Below are positions 28,857 to 42,467 of a stretch of 64,000 bases of DNA, piece by piece; position 1 is the stretch's first letter, and each line of letters begins with the position of its first letter. Below the pieces are notes generated by a model. That model made no database searches and was not told the DNA's origin. It was given only the letters and a program-made list of their open reading frames with translations. Made by a program: the position numbers and the translations under genes. The stretch covers positions 62,001-126,000 of the forward strand of contig CATOTS010000011.1 of the NCBI GenBank assembly GCA_951813625.1. Reading direction: 5' to 3'. The stretch comes from an uncultured Caldilineaceae bacterium. GTDB lineage: Bacteria; Chloroflexota; Anaerolineae; Caldilineales; Caldilineaceae.

Positions 28857-29845
28857 AAATACCCTAGCCGCTTTCTGTCCTCCATCGCGGCTTCGCTGCG
28901 GCGGTCGTCCGCGCGGTCACCGCGTTCGGTTATGCGCGCGGTCGCGACCTCCTCTATGATCGCGGCCAGGCTGCCGGCGGCGGAGAGCACCGCGCCGGTG
29001 CAGGTCATGTCGCCAATCGTGCGGAAGCGCACTTTCTCACAGCTTACCGTTTCGCCCGCCTGCGGGGTGACATGAATTCCGACCGCGAGCAGGACCCCGT
29101 CGCGGCGCACCACCTCCCGCTCATGGGCGAAATAGAGGCTGGGCAACTCGATACGTTGCTCGGCGATATACTGCCAGATATCGAGCTCGGTCCAGTTGCT
29201 GATTGGAAAGACGCGGAAATGCTCGTTGTCCAATTTACGCCCGTTGAAAAGGTTCCACAGCTCGGGCCGCTGGTTCTTGGGATTCCACTGGCCGAACGCG
29301 TCGCGGTGCGAGAAGAAGCGCTCCTTCGCTCTTGCCTTCTCCTCGTCGCGGCGGCCGCCGCCTATGGCTGCGTCAATCCGCAGCTCTGCCAGGGCATCCA
29401 ACAGCGTAACTGTCTGCAGTTTGTTGCGGCTGGGATTGAGACCCGGTTCCTCCTGAACGCGCCCGGCGTCGATTGAGTCCTGCACCGAGCGAACCAGCAG
29501 GCGGACACCCAACTCTTGAATAAGCTGATCGCGGAACAGCAAGGTTTCGGGGAAGTTGTGTCCCGTGTCGATGTGCAGCAGCGGAAAGGGAATCCGCCCC
29601 GGCGCGAACGCTTTGCTGGCCAGATGCGCGCAGACGATCGAGTCCTTGCCCCCGGAAAAGAGCATGCAGGGCCGCTCGAACTGGGCCGCCACCTCGCGCA
29701 GCACATAGATCGCCTCCGACTCGAGCTGACGCAGGTGTCCGACCAGGGGAGCAGGCAGCCCGTGCGCCGCGTCGTCACGCGCAGCATGCAATGGGCTCTC
29801 TTCGATATCCTGCACTGCTTCAGCTCCCAGCGTCACATCGTCCAT
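28853..29845 (-). CDS. cysD: Sulfate adenylyltransferase small subunit CysD
   Basis: The 330-residue protein is a PP-loop ATP pyrophosphatase with SGGKDS at residues 64-69. It has HIDTGHNFPETL and the family block GGGRRDEEKARAKERFFSHRDAFGQWNPKNQRPELWNL. It forms APS together with the CysN part encoded downstream. The extended N-terminus (about 35 residues) is acidic and not conserved. Confidence 0.96.
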   Translation of the reverse strand: MDDVTLGAEAVQDIEESPLHAARDDAAHGLPAPLVGHLRQLESEAIYVLREVAAQFERPCMLFSGGKDSIVCAHLASKAFAPGRIPFPLLHIDTGHNFPETLLFRDQLIQELGVRLLVRSVQDSIDAGRVQEEPGLNPSRNKLQTVTLLDALAELRIDAAIGGGRRDEEKARAKERFFSHRDAFGQWNPKNQRPELWNLFNGRKLDNEHFRVFPISNWTELDIWQYIAEQRIELPSLYFAHEREVVRRDGVLLAVGIHVTPQAGETVSCEKVRFRTIGDMTCTGAVLSAAGSLAAIIEEVATARITERGDRADDRRSEAAMEDRKRLGYF

Positions 29846-30181
29846 TGCCTACCCTCGCTTCGAGTGCGCGGCGGTTGGCCACAGCCCTTGCAAAGTCTTC
29901 ATACTACGACGTTACGGCCTTTTCAGCCAAACTTGCCGATATATCAGGCGGGCCGCTGCACGTCCCGCTTAGAGGAACCGCGGCGACGAACTCCCCTTGG
30001 ATTATTCTACCTCTACAATTGGTTGTCCCTTGATTCCACGGTTACAATGTGGAAATCCGTTGCAGACCGAATGCCTTGCCGCTTCTGTTTGCCGCTTGTG
30101 TTTATGGACAAACGCCGCGCCCGCGCGCTTACCCGTCAACGTAGAGGGAGTGCCGGACACCTGTACTCGATCGGAGATCCC
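29846..30181. promoter_or_regulatory. Divergent promoter region between cysD and the double-DsbA lipoprotein
   Basis: This 336-bp region holds no gene. On the minus strand, TTGGCT (29925-29930) and TAGTAT (29901-29906), separated by 18 bp, are a plausible promoter for cysD. On the plus strand, TTGGTT (30019-30024) and TACAAT (30043-30048), also 18 bp apart, would start the lipoprotein transcript near 30055 and leave a leader of about 125 nt. Confidence 0.5.
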
Positions 30182-31678
30182 ATGAATTCGCATAACAGAC
30201 GTTCGCGCCGCAAGAAGGAGGGGAACGAAAGGGGAGGGATGCCCCTAGTGGTCCTCCCGTTCCTCGCAGCCGTCCTTCTACTCGTCGCCGCCTGCACCGC
30301 CGACGGCTACATTGTCAGCCCGCCCGTTGCCGACTCCGGCGTTGCCGACTCCGGCGTTGCCGACTCCGGCGCTGTCGACTCCGGCGTTGCCGACCCCTGG
30401 CAGCAGCCCAACATGCACAGAGGCGTCTCCGTCGGCCTTACCGAAGAGGGCTATCCCTTCCGCGGCGACCCTAACGCTCCCGTCACCGTCTACGAGTACA
30501 GCGACTACGAGTGCCCCTTCTGCGCCCGTCACGTCATCCAGACCGAGCCGGCGCTCCTGGCCGCATTCGGAGAGAGCGGCGCGGTGAAATTTGTCTTCCG
30601 CGATATGCCCCTCTCCTCGCTCCATGCCAACGCGCTGTCCGCGTCCATCGCCGCCAACTGTGTCGCCGAACAGGATGTCGTCCTGTTTTGGCAGATGCAC
30701 GACAGGCTCTTCCGCACGCAGAAGGAGTGGGCGCCGCTCGAAGAGGCTCTGTCCTACTTCGCCGGGCTGGCGCAGGAGCTGGGCGTGGACCCCACGCAAT
30801 ACGGCTCCTGCATGGCCAATAGCGGGCCCCTGGTGGAAAAGGTAAATGCAAGCCTGGAGGAAGCCAGGTCCTTTGGCTTCACCGGCACGCCCAGCTTCCG
30901 CTTCGTCTATGAAGAGACCGGCGAAGCCTTCAGCCTCACCGGCGCACAGCCTTACGACACCTTCTCCAACTGGATCGAAACGATCGCGCTCGGGGGCTCG
31001 CCGCAGGGCGCTGCGCAGGCGCCGCAGCAAGACCAGACGCAGGGCGAAGGACAGCTGCCCTTCTGGGCCACCGCTGCAGGCCTGCTCCCCGACCCGGACC
31101 GGCCCGGCTTCACCCTCGCAGGCGACATATACAAGGGCAGCAGCGACGCCCCGATCGTCGTCGTCGAGTTCAGCGACTTCCAGTGCCCCTACTGCAGCCG
31201 CCACACGCTGACAACGCAGCCGGTCCTGGATGAGGAGTTCGTAAATACGGGGCAGGTGATGTGGGTGTTCAAGCATTTCCCGATCGAGAACATCCATCCC
31301 TTTGCCGTCTCGGCGGCGATTGCCGCGGAGTGCGCAGCGCGGCAGGAGGCGTTCTGGCAGTTTCACCACCGCCTTTTCGTCGAGATGTCGGACTGGTCCC
31401 GCCCGGACAACAGGGGCTACTTCATGGCCTTGGCCGCCGAATACGAACTGGACATTGACGCTTTTGAGAGCTGTCTGGCCCAGGATGAATCCGCCCTTGC
31501 AGTACAGAGCGATCTGCAGGATGGCATGCCTTTCGTGCGCGGCACGCCCACCTTCGTCGTTCTCTACGGCGGCGAGGGCCGGCTGATTCCCGGCGCTCTG
31601 CCTGCCGACCAGTTCGTCGGCGCGCTTTCCGAAGCGCTCGCAGCGGTTGGCGTCGAAAGCGACCCTGGCAGCGAATAA
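30182..31678 (+). CDS. Lipoprotein with two tandem DsbA-like thioredoxin domains
   Basis: The 498-residue protein has a signal helix ending in VAAC, which would be lipidated at Cys38 or so. A VADSG repeat and two DsbA/DSBA-like domains follow. Domain 1 has VYEYSDYECPFCARH (CxxC near residue 109) and FTGTPSFRFV; domain 2 has VVEFSDFQCPYCSRH (CxxC near 335) and VRGTPTFVVLY with the cis-Pro. Both domains keep CPxC and should be redox-active outside the cell. GGAG lies 5 nt before the ATG at 30182. An open frame extends upstream to 29516 but runs through the promoter region and the 5' part of cysD, so it is not the start. Confidence 0.88.
   Translation: MNSHNRRSRRKKEGNERGGMPLVVLPFLAAVLLLVAACTADGYIVSPPVADSGVADSGVADSGAVDSGVADPWQQPNMHRGVSVGLTEEGYPFRGDPNAPVTVYEYSDYECPFCARHVIQTEPALLAAFGESGAVKFVFRDMPLSSLHANALSASIAANCVAEQDVVLFWQMHDRLFRTQKEWAPLEEALSYFAGLAQELGVDPTQYGSCMANSGPLVEKVNASLEEARSFGFTGTPSFRFVYEETGEAFSLTGAQPYDTFSNWIETIALGGSPQGAAQAPQQDQTQGEGQLPFWATAAGLLPDPDRPGFTLAGDIYKGSSDAPIVVVEFSDFQCPYCSRHTLTTQPVLDEEFVNTGQVMWVFKHFPIENIHPFAVSAAIAAECAARQEAFWQFHHRLFVEMSDWSRPDNRGYFMALAAEYELDIDAFESCLAQDESALAVQSDLQDGMPFVRGTPTFVVLYGGEGRLIPGALPADQFVGALSEALAAVGVESDPGSE
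30326..30400 (+). repeat. 15-bp tandem repeat encoding VADSG
   Basis: There are five copies of GTTGCCGACTCCGGC or a one- to two-base variant, just after the lipobox of the double-DsbA lipoprotein. It forms a flexible acidic spacer between the lipid anchor and the first domain. Copy number may vary between strains. Confidence 0.9.
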
Positions 31679-35645: not shown

Positions 35646-38111
35646 ATGGAGCAGAGCGGGGCCCCGTTCATCAGTGAAAAGCCGACAATCTATCCGACGC
35701 TCGTCGTCGGCGTAGGCGGAATGGGCACGAATGCCGTGCGCGCGGTCAAGCGGCGCCTGCGCAAAGCGTGGGGCGGCGAATCGCTGCCGGCGATGATTCA
35801 ACTCCTGGCGCTGGACACCGAACCACTGATCAACCGGCTCGATCAGGAACCTCTTTACGCCGATGAATCGGCCTATATGGGCAAATTCGACGCCACGCGG
35901 CTGGTCGACAATCTCGAAAACCACCCGGAGATCGCCCGCTGGTGGGACTATCCGTCGATTCCCTTGGGCTACATTCATAATGGGGCCAAGCAGCTGCGCC
36001 CAATCGGGCGGCTCTCATTCTTCCGCAACTATGTAAATTTCAAGCGCCAGTTGGAGACGAAGTACGCGGCCCTCGACAAAATCCGCGATCTGGAAATGGC
36101 GCAGAACCGCCGCTTTCCGGTGATGAGCAACTACCAGCTCGTTTACGTCGTCAGCAGCCTCTGCGGCGGCACGGGCGCCGGCATGTTCATGGACGTGGCG
36201 CACCGCGTGCGCGCACTCGTGCGCAGCAACGCGCGCGTCGTCGGCATCTTCTTCCTGCCGGACGTCCTCGAAGAGGAGATCAACAGCGACCTGCAACGGC
36301 GACGGATCAAGGCCAACGCCTACGCCGCTCTGAAGGAGCTGAACTATTTTCAGGAGACGCAGCAGTTCCAGGAGCTCTACCCCAGCGAGCAGCGCGCCCT
36401 GCCCGACACGCCCTATGCGCCGTTCGACTTCATCTTTCTGGTCGGGCGCACCAACCGCGACGGCCGCAGCCTCGCGCGCAAAACCGACGCCGAGAACCTG
36501 GCCGCGCATCTCATCCAACTAACGGCCATCAGCCATCTCAGCAGCGAGATCCTTGGGTTGGAGGTCAACGTCGTGCGCGAGCGCATGTCGGGCAGTGTTG
36601 CCGCGGCCGAGGTGGTAAACGAACGGGGCCCGAAAAAGGGCAACTATCTCGTTTACAGCAGCTTTGCCGCGTCCGCCATCGTCGCGCCGGACGAGACGCT
36701 GGTCAACTTCTGGCAGCAGGCCTTCCTGGCCGACTGCGTGAGGCGGCTTGCTGCCGGGCCGGAGCTCAACGATCCGCGCCAGCCCATCTCCGCCCAGAGC
36801 CGTCAGAAGATTCTCTCGATCTGGCAGGGACTGCTGGCGCGCATGCGCGCCCGCTATCTTTCGCTGGACAACGACCGGCTGGAGGAGCTGGTCGAGGAGG
36901 TCGAGGAGCAGCGCGGGGCATGGCTCGGCTTCAAGACCGCGATCGACAACGCTTTTCGCCAGGCCGTGCTGGAAACAGGGCTGCGCGGCGCACTTACGCT
37001 GGCCGACCTGCTTGCGCCGCTCAACCCATCGACGGCGCCGATGGAGTCGCTGATCAAACAGAGGCTCTTCCTCGTCAACAATCATCCGGTGACCGAGGAG
37101 GACCGCGCCGGCTGGCGAACGCTGCTGGCACAGCAGGGCGGGGCCGCCGAACAGATCGGTCAGATCGCGGGCAGCTTCGGCGATCTGTTGCTGGCCGCCT
37201 TCAACCCGCGCCAGGCGCGCGACCGTGCGCGCGATATGCGCCAGCGCAAGGCCCGCGCGCGCCTGAACCAGCGCCGCGACAGGCTGGAGCGGGTGCTGGT
37301 GGAGCGGCTTTTCTCTCACAGCACACAGATGCGCGAACTGTTCCGAACGCAGATTGACAATGCCGGCAGCGCGCTGGGGCGGGCCAATCAGACGGCCAGA
37401 AGGGCCGCAGACAGAATCGATCCGCGTATACCCGACGGCACGGCCAGCACCAACACCTACTATGAACTGGAGACCGGCGCGGTCGGCCGCGACTACCTGC
37501 AGCATTTCTATCGCAACGCGGCCCAGGTCGTCCATGCAAGCGACTGGGAGACCCTGCTGGGGCCTGTTGTCGATCGCATTTCAAGCAGCGGCCAGCCCGT
37601 GACCGCCGAGGAGCTCTTCGCCAATCTCACCAACGCAATCGCCAACGAACGGGGTCTGTTGGGCCGCGTGCTGCAGTGCGTGGACATCCGGCACATCATC
37701 GATGTGCAGCACGGCGAAGAGACACAGCAGTCGCGGCCCCTGCCCAACAACCGCGTGCAGCAGTGGCTCGATCGCCTCAACCCGTACATCCGCTGGGACT
37801 CAGACCGCTTCAGCTTCCACGACGGCAACCTGGAGCACATCCGCCTGGCGGCCACACCGTCCTCTCGCACCGATGATCCGAACTTGGCGATGGCGATGAT
37901 AGGCCAGGAGGACATTAAATGGATACCCACCGGCGACACCGGCCGCATGGACGCCGTATGGATCGTCCACGGCCTGCCGGTGACGCTGATCGACCGGCTG
38001 GACGAGTTCCGGGCGCAGTATGAAAACGAGCGTGATTTCCCCGCCCGCGAGGAGTTTCATCTCCATCCCGCCTGGGTCGATCTGCCCGAAATCACGGAGG
38101 ACGGCTATTAG
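35646..38111 (+). CDS. Tubulin/FtsZ-like GTPase-type protein (Tubulin_2 family)
   Basis: The 821-residue protein opens with YPTLVVGVGGMGTNAVRAVKRR, the first nucleotide loop of the tubulin/FtsZ fold. Near residue 172 it has SSLCGGTGAGMFMDVA, the tubulin signature G-G-T-G-A-G. VVGIFFLPDV, RRIKANAYAALKELNYF and FDFIFLVGRTNRDG follow, as in the nucleotide-binding half. The remaining 500 residues are mostly helical. This matches the FtsZ-like families (Tubulin_2/FtsZl) that occur with VWA proteins. The gene is 120 nt after the VWA gene and 104 nt before the third gene. It should polymerise or switch at the membrane using GTP, by analogy. Confidence 0.88.
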   Translation: MEQSGAPFISEKPTIYPTLVVGVGGMGTNAVRAVKRRLRKAWGGESLPAMIQLLALDTEPLINRLDQEPLYADESAYMGKFDATRLVDNLENHPEIARWWDYPSIPLGYIHNGAKQLRPIGRLSFFRNYVNFKRQLETKYAALDKIRDLEMAQNRRFPVMSNYQLVYVVSSLCGGTGAGMFMDVAHRVRALVRSNARVVGIFFLPDVLEEEINSDLQRRRIKANAYAALKELNYFQETQQFQELYPSEQRALPDTPYAPFDFIFLVGRTNRDGRSLARKTDAENLAAHLIQLTAISHLSSEILGLEVNVVRERMSGSVAAAEVVNERGPKKGNYLVYSSFAASAIVAPDETLVNFWQQAFLADCVRRLAAGPELNDPRQPISAQSRQKILSIWQGLLARMRARYLSLDNDRLEELVEEVEEQRGAWLGFKTAIDNAFRQAVLETGLRGALTLADLLAPLNPSTAPMESLIKQRLFLVNNHPVTEEDRAGWRTLLAQQGGAAEQIGQIAGSFGDLLLAAFNPRQARDRARDMRQRKARARLNQRRDRLERVLVERLFSHSTQMRELFRTQIDNAGSALGRANQTARRAADRIDPRIPDGTASTNTYYELETGAVGRDYLQHFYRNAAQVVHASDWETLLGPVVDRISSSGQPVTAEELFANLTNAIANERGLLGRVLQCVDIRHIIDVQHGEETQQSRPLPNNRVQQWLDRLNPYIRWDSDRFSFHDGNLEHIRLAATPSSRTDDPNLAMAMIGQEDIKWIPTGDTGRMDAVWIVHGLPVTLIDRLDEFRAQYENERDFPAREEFHLHPAWVDLPEITEDGY

Positions 38112-38215: not shown

Positions 38216-41200
38216 ATGCTTCCCGGCGCAACGCGTAGCCGAGCCGCGATACTCTGTTTTGGCGGATGGGGCTTGCAGACAATGCTCCACCTGGCGCCGC
38301 GCCTGCAGGCTGCCCAGGAACAGCGCATCGCCAACGGTATCGACGGCCCCGACCTGACGCGCATCACCCGTTTTGCGGCCCTTCTTCCCTCCGATCACCT
38401 CGACCAACAGGGCGAGCTGGACCTCAGCCTTTTTACCCTGCGCGACAACCGGCTGCCGCCCTTCTACCTGGAGCGCTTGCTGCACAAGCTGGACCGCTCC
38501 AGGAACGCGGCCGCAGGCGGACACGCCGCGACGCTTGCCGCCAGCCAGCGGCGGGCCAGCCAGCTGCTGGCCGCGGTTGACGATACGTTGATCCCTCTGC
38601 AGTGGCAGGCGAACGCGGGAAGGCGCGGGGACGCTTCTTCTCCCCGCAAAGGACTGCCCTGGCCTTTCCGCAGGTCGGGCAAAGACGAGCAAAGCGACGA
38701 TGCGCTCGGCGGCGCCGGCATGCCGCCGGCAGCGCAGACCGCGCACGACCCGCCTACGCGGCGGCACGCCTTTCGCGCCGGCCTGCAGGCCGGCGACCAC
38801 ATCGCCCACCTGGTCGCGTCCAATATCATCGACCCGATCCGCGCCGACACGCACGTGCCGGGCGATCCCTTCGTGCAAACGACCCTCTACGTAATCGCAC
38901 CTCTTTTCGAACCGCTCACTTCGGCGCTGATCTGGCCGACGATCGCGCATCAGCTCAACTACCTGGGACAGCGCCACATCGCCCAGGTTGTCGGCATATT
39001 CGCGGCGGGCAGCTACGCAACCGACAGCAGCCGCGTCATCGAGGACGCCACCTGCTACGCGGCGATGGCGGAGCTGGAGGCGCTCACCGGGCTGCGTCCC
39101 GCCAATCTCGCCAAGTTTACGGCCTCCATGCGTCAGGATTTGGGCAAGCGCGGTACAGGTCGCGGCTCGCTGCCGGAAGAGTTGCTGGGGAATCCTCTCT
39201 TTGACCGCATCTACCTGGTGGACCGGGAAAAGAGCAATCAAGGACTGGCCCGCAACAGCTATGAGCTGTCCGCTCTGGTCAGCAACGCGCTCCAATCGCT
39301 CATTGCCGCCGACGGATCCGCTTACATTGATGAACAGGTCGGCATCGACCTGCGCAACGCCGGCGAACGGCCGTACAGCCTGCTGGGCGCGGCCGCAGAC
39401 TATATGCCGATCGACTATATACTGCAGACTGCGCAGGAAAACGAGGGCAAACGGCTCTTACGCGAGCTGGTTTTGCCCACCGAGGCGGCAGGCGGGGCCG
39501 GAATATCGCCGCCGCCCGCGGCTGCAGGCATGGAGCCGTTGACGCCTCTTCAGGAATTGGGCGCAACCTCGCAGCAGGTTTTGACGCAGCTCACCGAGCA
39601 GATGCCCCACCTGTTCAATGAGCTCAGCCCCCAATCGGCTGAGCAGATCTCGGTCCACCCCAGCTACATATTACCGAACGCGACGGCGCGCAAACTGCGC
39701 GGTCTGGACCCGGTCCGCTGGCAGGCGGCTTTCGACAGCCACCTGCAGGAGGTGCTGGCCCAGTTTGAAGAAAGCACCGACGGCGGCGCGCTGGACTCCG
39801 CCTGGGGATTGGCCGCCCTGCGCGAGGACGGCCTGCCCCACAACGCGAGCGACGCCCGTTTTCTGCCGGCCATCGCCATGCGAATGCGCACGCGGCTGCT
39901 CACTCTTCTCGGTTCGCAACCGGCGGGGATCGTACATGCGCGACGGCAGCTCCACCAGTGGCTCTACGAACTGGGGCTGGAACGCCACGCGCTGTCCAGC
40001 TCTGCGAACGACGTCATCCCGCAGGCCGGAGCCGGCCACGCCGAGCGCCAGCTGGAACTGCGCGACTGGCGCAGCCGCTATATGCGCACGCTCGGCGACC
40101 AGCCGTCGCTGTTCGGCTCGATGACGCGCGCGGTCGGCCTGTTGGGCGGCATCGTGCTGCTGACTCTGCTCTATCTGTTCGGTGCCGGTCTGGCGGGCAA
40201 CATGGACGCCATCGTCACGAACGATTCAAACGCGGTCGCGCTCATGGGGCTGATGGACGAAGCGTTTGCCGGCGCGGTCGTCGATTTCATCGAGAGCGAG
40301 GCCAACGCGGCCACCTTCATCGGGCTGATGCTCGGCGCGTTTCTGGGTGCGATGATCTCATTTCGGACGCGATTGCGGCGCGTTCGAACGCTGCGGCGGG
40401 AAAGGGTGAACCTGGCCCGTTCCGAATTGACCGGCCGGTTGCAGGAAAGCGTACGACGCGGGCTGGGACGCGCCCATGAACGTCTGCAACAGATGCTGCA
40501 ACAGATGGACGGCGTCTTTGAGGAGACCTGCGAGCTTCTGCAGGAGTGGTCGGTCAGCGAGGCGCTGCCGCCGCTGCCGCCCGAAGACGTGACCAGCACC
40601 CATCTCTATCGCCCGCATCTCAATTCAGGGTTGTGGGAGCGCTGCCAGGCCTTTATGCGCAGCCGCCAGGACGCCGAAGGACGCCATGGGGAAGGGCGGC
40701 TGCGCGAAATCTGGACATCCCCGCAGCGCCGTGATCAACTCGCGGCTCTGTTCACCGGCCAGTCCGACAATGCGCATAGAGGGGACGGTCAGCGCGGCCT
40801 CGCGCAGACCCTGGCCGCCTACGTCCGCCGCAGCGCGCAGGACGCGGTCGCGACCGGGCCGACGGAAACGCTGGAACATGCGGACGGCGGCGAGCGCTCC
40901 TTCAACGAGGATGAAAACCTCCTCGCGCGCCGGGAATTCGTGCGCTCGCTCGCTCGCGACTACAACCTGGAGCATCTCCTCTGGCGCGACATCGCCTCGT
41001 CGGAGGATTTCACCTCCTTTTCTCCCGAAGGGACGTTCACACCCGTATCGGCCGCAACACTGCGCTATCTGGAAACTATGTGGAGCGTCGCCAAACCCGC
41101 GGCCAACTACGACGTCTCCGACCGCCTGGCCGCCTACGGCCTGCCGGTCGAATTTGCCGCCGTCTCCGGCGACCCGGACAGCGACCTGACCGAGGGCGTG

Positions 41201-41455: not shown

Positions 41456-42467
41456 GGGCCTTATGCTAGTTAGGGAAGGCCAGTTTTTTGATCTGCAGGT
41501 AGTCGGGCGCCGCCATGAGCCGATTGATGTAGATGCATAGGGTGTGTGCGGTCAGCTTCGTGTACAGGCGGGCGCGCAGTCCCTGGAAAGTATGTGCATG
41601 GTTGGTCTCGATTTGGAATTGTTCGACCAACTGGCTGTTGACGGTTTCAATGATTTGGCGCAACGAGTTAAAGAGGCGACGGACAGACTTGGGGAGCTGT
41701 CGTTTCTGGTTGCGGCGGGTCAAGGTGTGCAGACGGATGCGATTGTGTTGCCAGAGTTCGGCAGCGACCTCTGCACTGATATAGGCTTTGTCGCCGATGA
41801 CGCGGCAGTTGCTGTGTTGCGCCAAGAGTTCGCGCCCTACCGTCAAGTCAAAGACACTGGCAGGGGCGAGCTCGAAATCGAGGATGAGACCGCCTGCAGT
41901 GGTCAGAAGATGCAGCTTGTAACCGAAAACTGTTTCTTTGCGGGAGGCGCTCTTACCGAAATTTGCGCCATGGGCTGTCCAGTCACCACACGAATTAGGC
42001 GCAAGATGGAACTGAACCACGGGAATGGGCAGACTATCGATTACACAATGCCCATCTCGAGAGAGATCGATGCGAGCCAACGTCATCTGTCGTATCCGGT
42101 TGATGACAAACTGTAACTGCCGCCGTCGCCGATTGAAGCGGCTTTGTTCCGGCAAGACGGGAAACTTATCCCGATGTGCCTGCATATGACTGAGTAGCTC
42201 TGTTTCCACATCCCACCCCAGGCACTCGCCGACGGGACAGACGGCTATCATTTCACTACTGCTACACGCCGGCTTGGGCCCCGGTCGTCCCATATCGCCT
42301 TCCAGTTCTTGACACATGTCGTCAACGACCACATAGACCCATAGACAGAAATCGTCAAAGTGCGCAATCATTCGGTTGGTCCTCCTGGCGAGATACTTTG
42401 TTGGTGTCGAACTTCAAAGTTATCTCACCAGGGGGCTTTTTTTCAAACGCTATCTAGCATAAGGCCC
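41456..42467 (-). mobile_element. IS982-like insertion sequence
   Basis: GGGCCTTATGCTAG at 41456-41469 and its exact complement CTAGCATAAGGCCC at 42454-42467 are the terminal inverted repeats, 14 bp perfect. The single transposase gene lies between them on the minus strand. Flanking bases (CTAATT on the left, GAAGAG on the right) show no direct repeat, so the element is either old or was recombined. It sits between the tubulin operon and the WS/DGAT gene, whose first ATG is 9 nt beyond the right end. Confidence 0.9.
41466..42371 (-). CDS. IS982-family DDE transposase
   Basis: The 301-residue protein has CVIDSLPIPV (first Asp), VIGDKAYIS (second Asp) and IIETVNSQLVEQF (Glu), in the spacing of DDE transposases of the IS4/IS982 kind. 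It also has the LMAAPDYLQIKK C-terminal region common in IS982. The ATG at 42371 is preceded by AGGAGG. The frame is intact, so the copy may still be active. Confidence 0.9.
   Translation of the reverse strand: MIAHFDDFCLWVYVVVDDMCQELEGDMGRPGPKPACSSSEMIAVCPVGECLGWDVETELLSHMQAHRDKFPVLPEQSRFNRRRRQLQFVINRIRQMTLARIDLSRDGHCVIDSLPIPVVQFHLAPNSCGDWTAHGANFGKSASRKETVFGYKLHLLTTAGGLILDFELAPASVFDLTVGRELLAQHSNCRVIGDKAYISAEVAAELWQHNRIRLHTLTRRNQKRQLPKSVRRLFNSLRQIIETVNSQLVEQFQIETNHAHTFQGLRARLYTKLTAHTLCIYINRLMAAPDYLQIKKLAFPN

Follow-up and report, generated by a model that had tools for sequence, protein, structure and literature searches.

The third gene of a vWA/tubulin gene trio is, by profile comparison, near certainly a full-length tubulin paralogue of the gene directly upstream of it. 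This copy has lost its glycine-rich GTP loop, and it is inherited together with its active neighbour throughout the class. It lies in the window, the stretch of 64,000 nucleotides of DNA from an uncultured Caldilineaceae bacterium that we analysed (contig C11 of a 5.4 Mb genome), where three genes follow one another head to tail, all on the + strand. We refer to them as A (the vWA gene), B (the Tubulin_2 gene) and C (the third, loop-less gene). The intergenic gaps are 120 bases between A and B and 104 bases between B and C. In related loci B and C often overlap or are separated by just a few bases, which suggests one operon, and the three genes probably form a co-transcribed, three-part system. 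The closest named record to the window protein is 92% identical and comes from a Caldilineaceae metagenome-assembled genome (Chloroflexota); a search of genome contigs with protein C returned only one near-identical relative. On contig C42, the genome to which the window belongs also carries a separate gene of the ordinary FtsZ type.

Table 1. Position of the trio and of its sequence features in the window, and of the fusion proteins at related loci (residues are those of the named protein).
Feature	Position	Strand	Basis
Gene A, vWA-domain membrane protein, up to 1179 aa	31986..35525	+	Pfam VWA_2, E 4.2e-5, just under cut-off
Gene B, soluble tubulin-like GTPase, Tubulin_2/PF13809 (FtsZl1)	35646..38111	+	PF13809, E 2.9e-61; PF00091, E 2.3e-4
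Gene B T4 loop CGGTGAG, residues 173-179	36162..36182	+	Alignment
Gene C, loop-less tubulin paralogue with predicted membrane hairpin, 1063 aa	38216..41407	+	Profile-profile comparison with the B family
Gene C tubulin-like N-terminal domain, residues 1-430	38216..39505	+	Alignment and hhalign to the B family
Gene C T1-like loop FGGWGL, residues 15-20, glycines partly kept	38258..38275	+	Alignment
Gene C degenerate T4 position FEPLTSA, residues 231-237	38906..38926	+	Alignment, opposite CGGTGAG of B
Gene C predicted TM helix 1 of hairpin, residues 639-657	40130..40186	+	Hydropathy peak 2.23
Gene C predicted TM helix 2, residues 698-716, followed by an Arg-rich stretch	40307..40363	+	Hydropathy peak 1.95
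Giant fusion third proteins, 1831-2133 aa	L184:3117-9464, L185:8757-15155, L186:3271-8763		

Compared directly as single sequences by BLASTP, C and B gave no significant match, the one insignificant HSP being in the right register, and a phmmer search of the PDB returned nothing significant. PF13809 matched C of the window alone with 18.1 bits (E 0.0017), under the 27-bit Pfam cut-off. Since an insignificant BLASTP result and a Pfam match below cut-off made similarity by eye insufficient, families were built for both proteins: the searches covered 298 and 396 class genomes, from which the neighbourhoods were extracted and translated. When the wide C family was aligned to the wide B family with hhalign, the two matched almost end to end (Prob 100, E 7.7e-51, 738 columns). 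The near relatives of C matched the wide B family with an E of 2.6e-28 over 757 columns. As controls, reversed or shuffled B alignments gave E 0.2-0.94 and a vWA family E 0.76, while the best of 16 unrelated neighbouring families reached 0.067. A search of the whole genome of origin with PF13809 found two places only, B (E 4.4e-62) and C (21.3 bits, E 3.1e-4). Many C homologues exceeded the cut-off of 27 bits for the same model, among them proteins from other families of the class; examples scored 96.8, 99.5, 67.3, 61.6, 34.4 and 32.4 bits. Given the full-length profile matches, the clean controls and the PF13809 results, we conclude that C is near certainly a diverged full-length copy of B. 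A direct comparison of C with the FtsZ profile was insignificant (E 0.21), and B matched that profile with E 3e-4; the link of C to FtsZ thus runs through B.

An initial annotation of this DNA had proposed the paralogy from short blocks shared by the two proteins. All of the quoted blocks are present, and in identical order: ILCFGGWGLQTML at residue 12, YVIAPLFEPLTSALIWPTIAHQL at 225, VVGIFAAGSYATD at 258, AAMAELEAL at 282 and FDRIYLVDREKSNQGLARNSYE at 329 of C, and VVGVGGMGTNAV at 20, YVVSSLCGGTGAGMFMDVAHRV at 167, VVGIFFLPDV at 198, AALKELN at 227 and FDFIFLVGRTNRDGRSLARKTD at 260 of B. The spacing, also said to be equal, is similar in C and B for the last blocks (33 versus 31 and 71 versus 62 residues) and differs from T1 to T4 (213 versus 147). 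C carries an extra variable stretch at about residues 130-180, absent from distant homologues, so that this part of the proposal was only partly right. The profile-profile comparison of the two N-terminal halves that the annotation had recommended returned the register it had read (Prob 97.1, E 4.9e-11, 22 homologues each). The homology moreover covers the full length of the proteins and more than the residues 1-370 considered at the time. AlphaFold2 models of residues 1-430 of C, built from only 2 or 4 sequences, had pLDDT values of 30.9 and 31.2 and were uninformative on the fold.

The absence of a glycine-rich T4 loop from C, likewise noted from the sequence of the window, was borne out by the alignment, in which FEPLTSA stands opposite CGGTGAG of B. 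To this alignment 30 active partners (B) and 26 third proteins (C) contributed, and the counts that follow include readable cases only. GGTG was found at T4 in 29/30 active partners and in none of 23 third proteins, so the loss, which the annotation had advised checking, is common to all of these third proteins. The T4 threonine was present in all 30 active partners versus 0/23 third proteins. In columns that we assigned to T3 and T2 by our own reading of the alignment, the T3 GA was kept by 27/30 active partners versus 1/20 third proteins, and the T2 aspartate by 30/30 versus 7/19. At T1, 6 of 20 third proteins fit the strict pattern GxGGxG and all 20 the relaxed pattern [GC]xGxxG, and G16 and G19 of C are invariant among its 22 homologues. 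The T4 replacement varies by lineage (FEPLTS in the window family; GDIAGS, SDPFTS, GEAVAG and AEAYGG elsewhere), so that no single new motif has arisen, yet the loss is consistent. Because of FEPLTSA in C and the lack of GGTG in all 23 readable third proteins, we regard C as a relative within the superfamily and do not class it as an FtsZ-type GTPase. Judged from these motifs, C is predicted not to bind GTP. At one further locus (L182:5388-7748), a loop-less Tubulin_2-like protein has GLGGIG at T1 and FGLTGS at the T4 position, and the 12 kb examined there contain no intact Tubulin_2 gene.

C nevertheless is an intact ORF. Between the window and its closest relative, dN/dS is 0.134 for C versus 0.046 for B; C is under purifying selection and is constrained less than B. 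It also has invariant residues of its own, including H25, R29, R37, R209, W240, P241 and K339.

Beyond what had been proposed from the window, the pairing of an active with a loop-less tubulin proved to be class-wide, more than a local oddity. The gene order vWA, Tubulin_2, loop-less Tubulin_2 recurs in nearly every class locus examined, and nearly all intact Tubulin_2 genes of these loci are followed directly, on the same strand, by a loop-less C homologue. Since the first group of loci had been selected for the presence of C and was therefore biased, we used as a fairer sample nine loci selected on B alone (L183 and L187-L194). All nine have a gene at least weakly related to C in the third position. 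The third genes of L187-L190 are recognised by single-protein profiles. Those of L183, L191, L193 and L194 are recognised only as a group, with a group profile that matches the B family at E 3.1e-19 and also includes L188 and L190, which makes the evidence for these four weaker. The third gene of L192 is a weak match with a truncated ORF. At L105 and L106 the third gene is more distant, at 0.8 to 1.3 kb. The sample as a whole is thin outside Chloroflexota.

In trees of the N-terminal domain, a supported branch sets the clade of the window C apart. The lineage order of the B tree is for the most part repeated in the C tree, whose branches are several times longer. We conclude that the active and the loop-less copy have been passed on as a pair throughout the class, and we hold the identity of C and its conserved pairing, taken together, with high confidence. 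One origin for all loop-less copies was supported by 0/200 bootstrap trees but was not rejected by the AU test (p 0.053), so a second origin is only suggested.

The initial annotation had joined C to membrane helices, and a plain hydropathy scan, used for all TM assignments given here, indeed predicts a hairpin. By the same scan, most third proteins have a central pair of TM helices, most B proteins have none, and in most A proteins a TM helix close to the C-terminus accompanies a signal or TM segment close to the N-terminus. The window trio has this arrangement. A consists of an N-terminal signal/TM segment, a vWA domain with the MIDAS motif DDSGS at 136 and one TM helix near the C-terminus (hydropathy peaks at residues 79-97 and 1036-1054). 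A close relative (L002) starts at the position of residue 36 of A. B has intact T1 and T4 loops and no TM helix. The third proteins of L089, L188 and L190 and the Thermales candidates described below have no obvious hairpin, from which it follows that membrane anchoring is not universal.

Three giant third proteins of a side lineage (L184-L186; Table 1) are single chains in which a Tubulin_2 domain is combined with a vWA part, membrane helices and a WD40-like propeller, and in two of the three also with a CAP domain. Their T4 loop is damaged (GGFG), an intact Tubulin_2 gene is adjacent, and in the trees they cluster with the B proteins of their own loci (bootstrap 99, SH-aLRT 96). The vWA part is extracellular and is linked to the tubulin domain through the membrane helices. 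These fusions are the best hint that C and A cooperate across the membrane, and together with the gene order they suggest that A, B and C contact one another.

As the best overall explanation, we consider it likely that a nucleotide-free, membrane-anchored C docks or seeds active B at a vWA surface complex, a confidence dominated by the identity of C and its conserved pairing and not by the mechanism. The mechanism alone, in which C, fixed in the membrane, would seed B or anchor one end of it, is a tentative reading that we favour over its rivals. C would keep a tubulin-type interface toward B while not binding GTP, and would be held at the membrane beside the extracytoplasmic vWA protein A. 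GTP-loaded B would then dock on C as the starting point for its polymerisation or oligomerisation. Since C would be unable to hydrolyse GTP, the first B–C contact could be stable and the assembly of B could be tied to A, which, via its MIDAS site, could sense or grip something outside the cell. B may form filaments, and C may serve as their anchor or cap, as the initial annotation had imagined. Against this proposal, the T6-H7 region needed for FtsZ-type filaments is described as unidentifiable in the family (PMC2875224).

The strict pairing and the mirrored trees would also be accounted for if B and C formed an obligate heterodimer, repeating 1:1 like alpha- and beta-tubulin, with every second subunit dead and C a building block of the polymer. 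The full-length homology means that C could have both longitudinal faces. However, the TM hairpin, present in C and absent from B, would tie the entire polymer to the membrane, and the evolutionary rate of C is about three times that of B, which is unusual for a repeating lattice subunit. We consider this arrangement unlikely. The lack of a recognisable T6-H7 region would in turn fit a system in which no filament is formed at all, B acting as a GTP switch and C as its membrane-bound regulator or receptor. The trio would then be a complex of signalling or conflict type, through which the cytoplasm is informed of vWA binding outside the cell. Related vWA/tubulin operons have been proposed as NTP-dependent conflict systems (PMC7159879), and in Thermales the neighbours of a similar trio are brxL, DNA methylase, HEPN or CRISPR genes. 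However, polymerisation is common to every characterised superfamily member, according to the authors' reply to a reviewer in 2010 (PMC2875224). In the window, PADLOC gave no match for any of the three proteins, and the flanking genes named by Pfam (DsbA-like, transposase, WS/DGAT and DUF1385) are not defence genes. A filament-free switch thus also appears improbable to us, to a similar degree.

It is very improbable that C is not a tubulin and shares with B only a Rossmann-like GxGxxG strand-loop and a few chance blocks: the insignificant BLASTP and FtsZ-profile comparisons would fit such a view, but the full-length family match with clean controls, the two intermediate third proteins scoring 96.8 and 99.5 bits, and the restriction of PF13809 to B and C in their own genome speak against it. 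That C is a functionless, decaying duplicate, as its faster evolution and lost GTP motifs might suggest, is already contradicted by its intact ORF, its dN/dS, its own invariant residues and its retention beside B class-wide, and can be practically dismissed.

Extending the reading of C as a seed for B, one may speculate that an active and a dead tubulin are the obligatory design of vWA/FtsZl1 systems, the dead copy being a membrane-spanning docking seed for an extracellular vWA sensor. Such a design would have arisen at least two times, as the old loop-lost paralogue and as the giant GGFG vWA-propeller-tubulin fusion, with the reduced third gene of Thermales as a further version. We regard this generalisation as doubtful.

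Operons of vWA and FtsZl1 genes were described by Makarova and Koonin in 2010; a vWA protein is the most frequent neighbour there, the operons also encode membrane proteins, and the genomes analysed included Chloroflexus (PMC2875224). B is a member of this family, and the window trio belongs to these operons. An FtsZl1 gene stands beside a vWA-protein gene both here (A and B) and in nearly all class loci examined, and at most loci an A-type gene occupies the same position upstream of B. The superfamily signature given in the 2010 paper is GGGTG(S/T)G, and most of the remaining operon genes appear there as families in which no domain could be recognised; we found no loop-less paralogue described in its main text, and the third gene may correspond to one of the families left unnamed there (PMC2875224). 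We found no description of a loop-less partner in the open-access literature; subscription papers could hold one. In the GAP1-N2 systems reported by Kaur et al. in 2020, the Firmicutes versions combine two vWA genes, one vWA being extracellular on a TM protein, with two tubulin-domain genes that also have coiled coils (PMC7159879). These systems are centred on GAP1 and a TRAFAC GTPase, neither of which is among the Pfam-named genes flanking the window trio, and the passages that describe them do not state that one tubulin copy is inactive (PMC7159879).

Compared with FtsZ/tubulin (PF00091), B is similar at the superfamily level, whereas C has neither a direct significant match nor the signature loop. 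Eukaryotic Misato/DML1 is a tubulin-superfamily protein with degenerate GTP motifs. C resembles it, and archaeal FtsZ paralogues, in that a tubulin-like protein has lost its nucleotide-binding motifs. To our knowledge, neither Misato/DML1 nor the archaeal paralogues are operon-paired, membrane-hairpin partners of an active paralogue. Archaeal FtsZ paralogues with degenerate GTP motifs are mentioned in the 2010 paper, where a reviewer also asked how a cytoplasmic tubulin could connect to membrane or surface proteins (PMC2875224). That connection was a main puzzle of the FtsZl1/vWA system, which was predicted in 2010 and has had no mechanism assigned to it since then. The loop-less, membrane-anchored paralogue and the vWA fusions now offer a concrete candidate for the link from tubulin to the cell surface, and B/C pairs are directly testable protein pairs. 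If the proposal is true, the tubulin superfamily would include a pseudo-enzyme partner, with a logic comparable to that of pseudokinases, and paired tubulins would have evolved independently of alpha/beta-tubulin.

Just upstream of the cassette, a gene for a two-domain DsbA/thioredoxin-like protein (29516-31678) keeps its position in 16 related loci; its product may act on disulfides of the vWA protein outside the cytoplasm. Directly 3' of C, on the opposite strand, lies a DDE transposase gene (41466-42371). The viral contigs searched gave no match, no plasmid carrying C was found, and an NCBIfam search returned nothing useful.

On plasmids of Meiothermus, Thermus and Allomeiothermus, a vWA gene, a tubulin-like gene, a gene for a 680-aa 'hypothetical' protein and brxL occur together (L107:5979-14395, L108:6311-14381, L111:5366-14458 and L195:8001-11685). 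The neighbourhoods are defence-like, with DUF1156, Swt1-HEPN, N-6 methylase and CRISPR genes. The annotation of the T. thermophilus plasmid shows the hypothetical gene and brxL but no tubulin-like gene next to them. The Thermales third gene matched wide C profiles in the right register with E 0.0029 to 1.1e-4 and two other sets with E 0.23 and 0.024, the best of 16 unrelated families reaching 0.056. As a lead only, the 680-aa protein may be a strongly reduced loop-less tubulin. Deinococcus plasmids (L112, L113 and L114) carry a different version of the vWA/FtsZl1 system, in which Tubulin_2 is accompanied by OmpA instead of a third tubulin; one of the three also has genes annotated as MotA/TolQ/ExbB.
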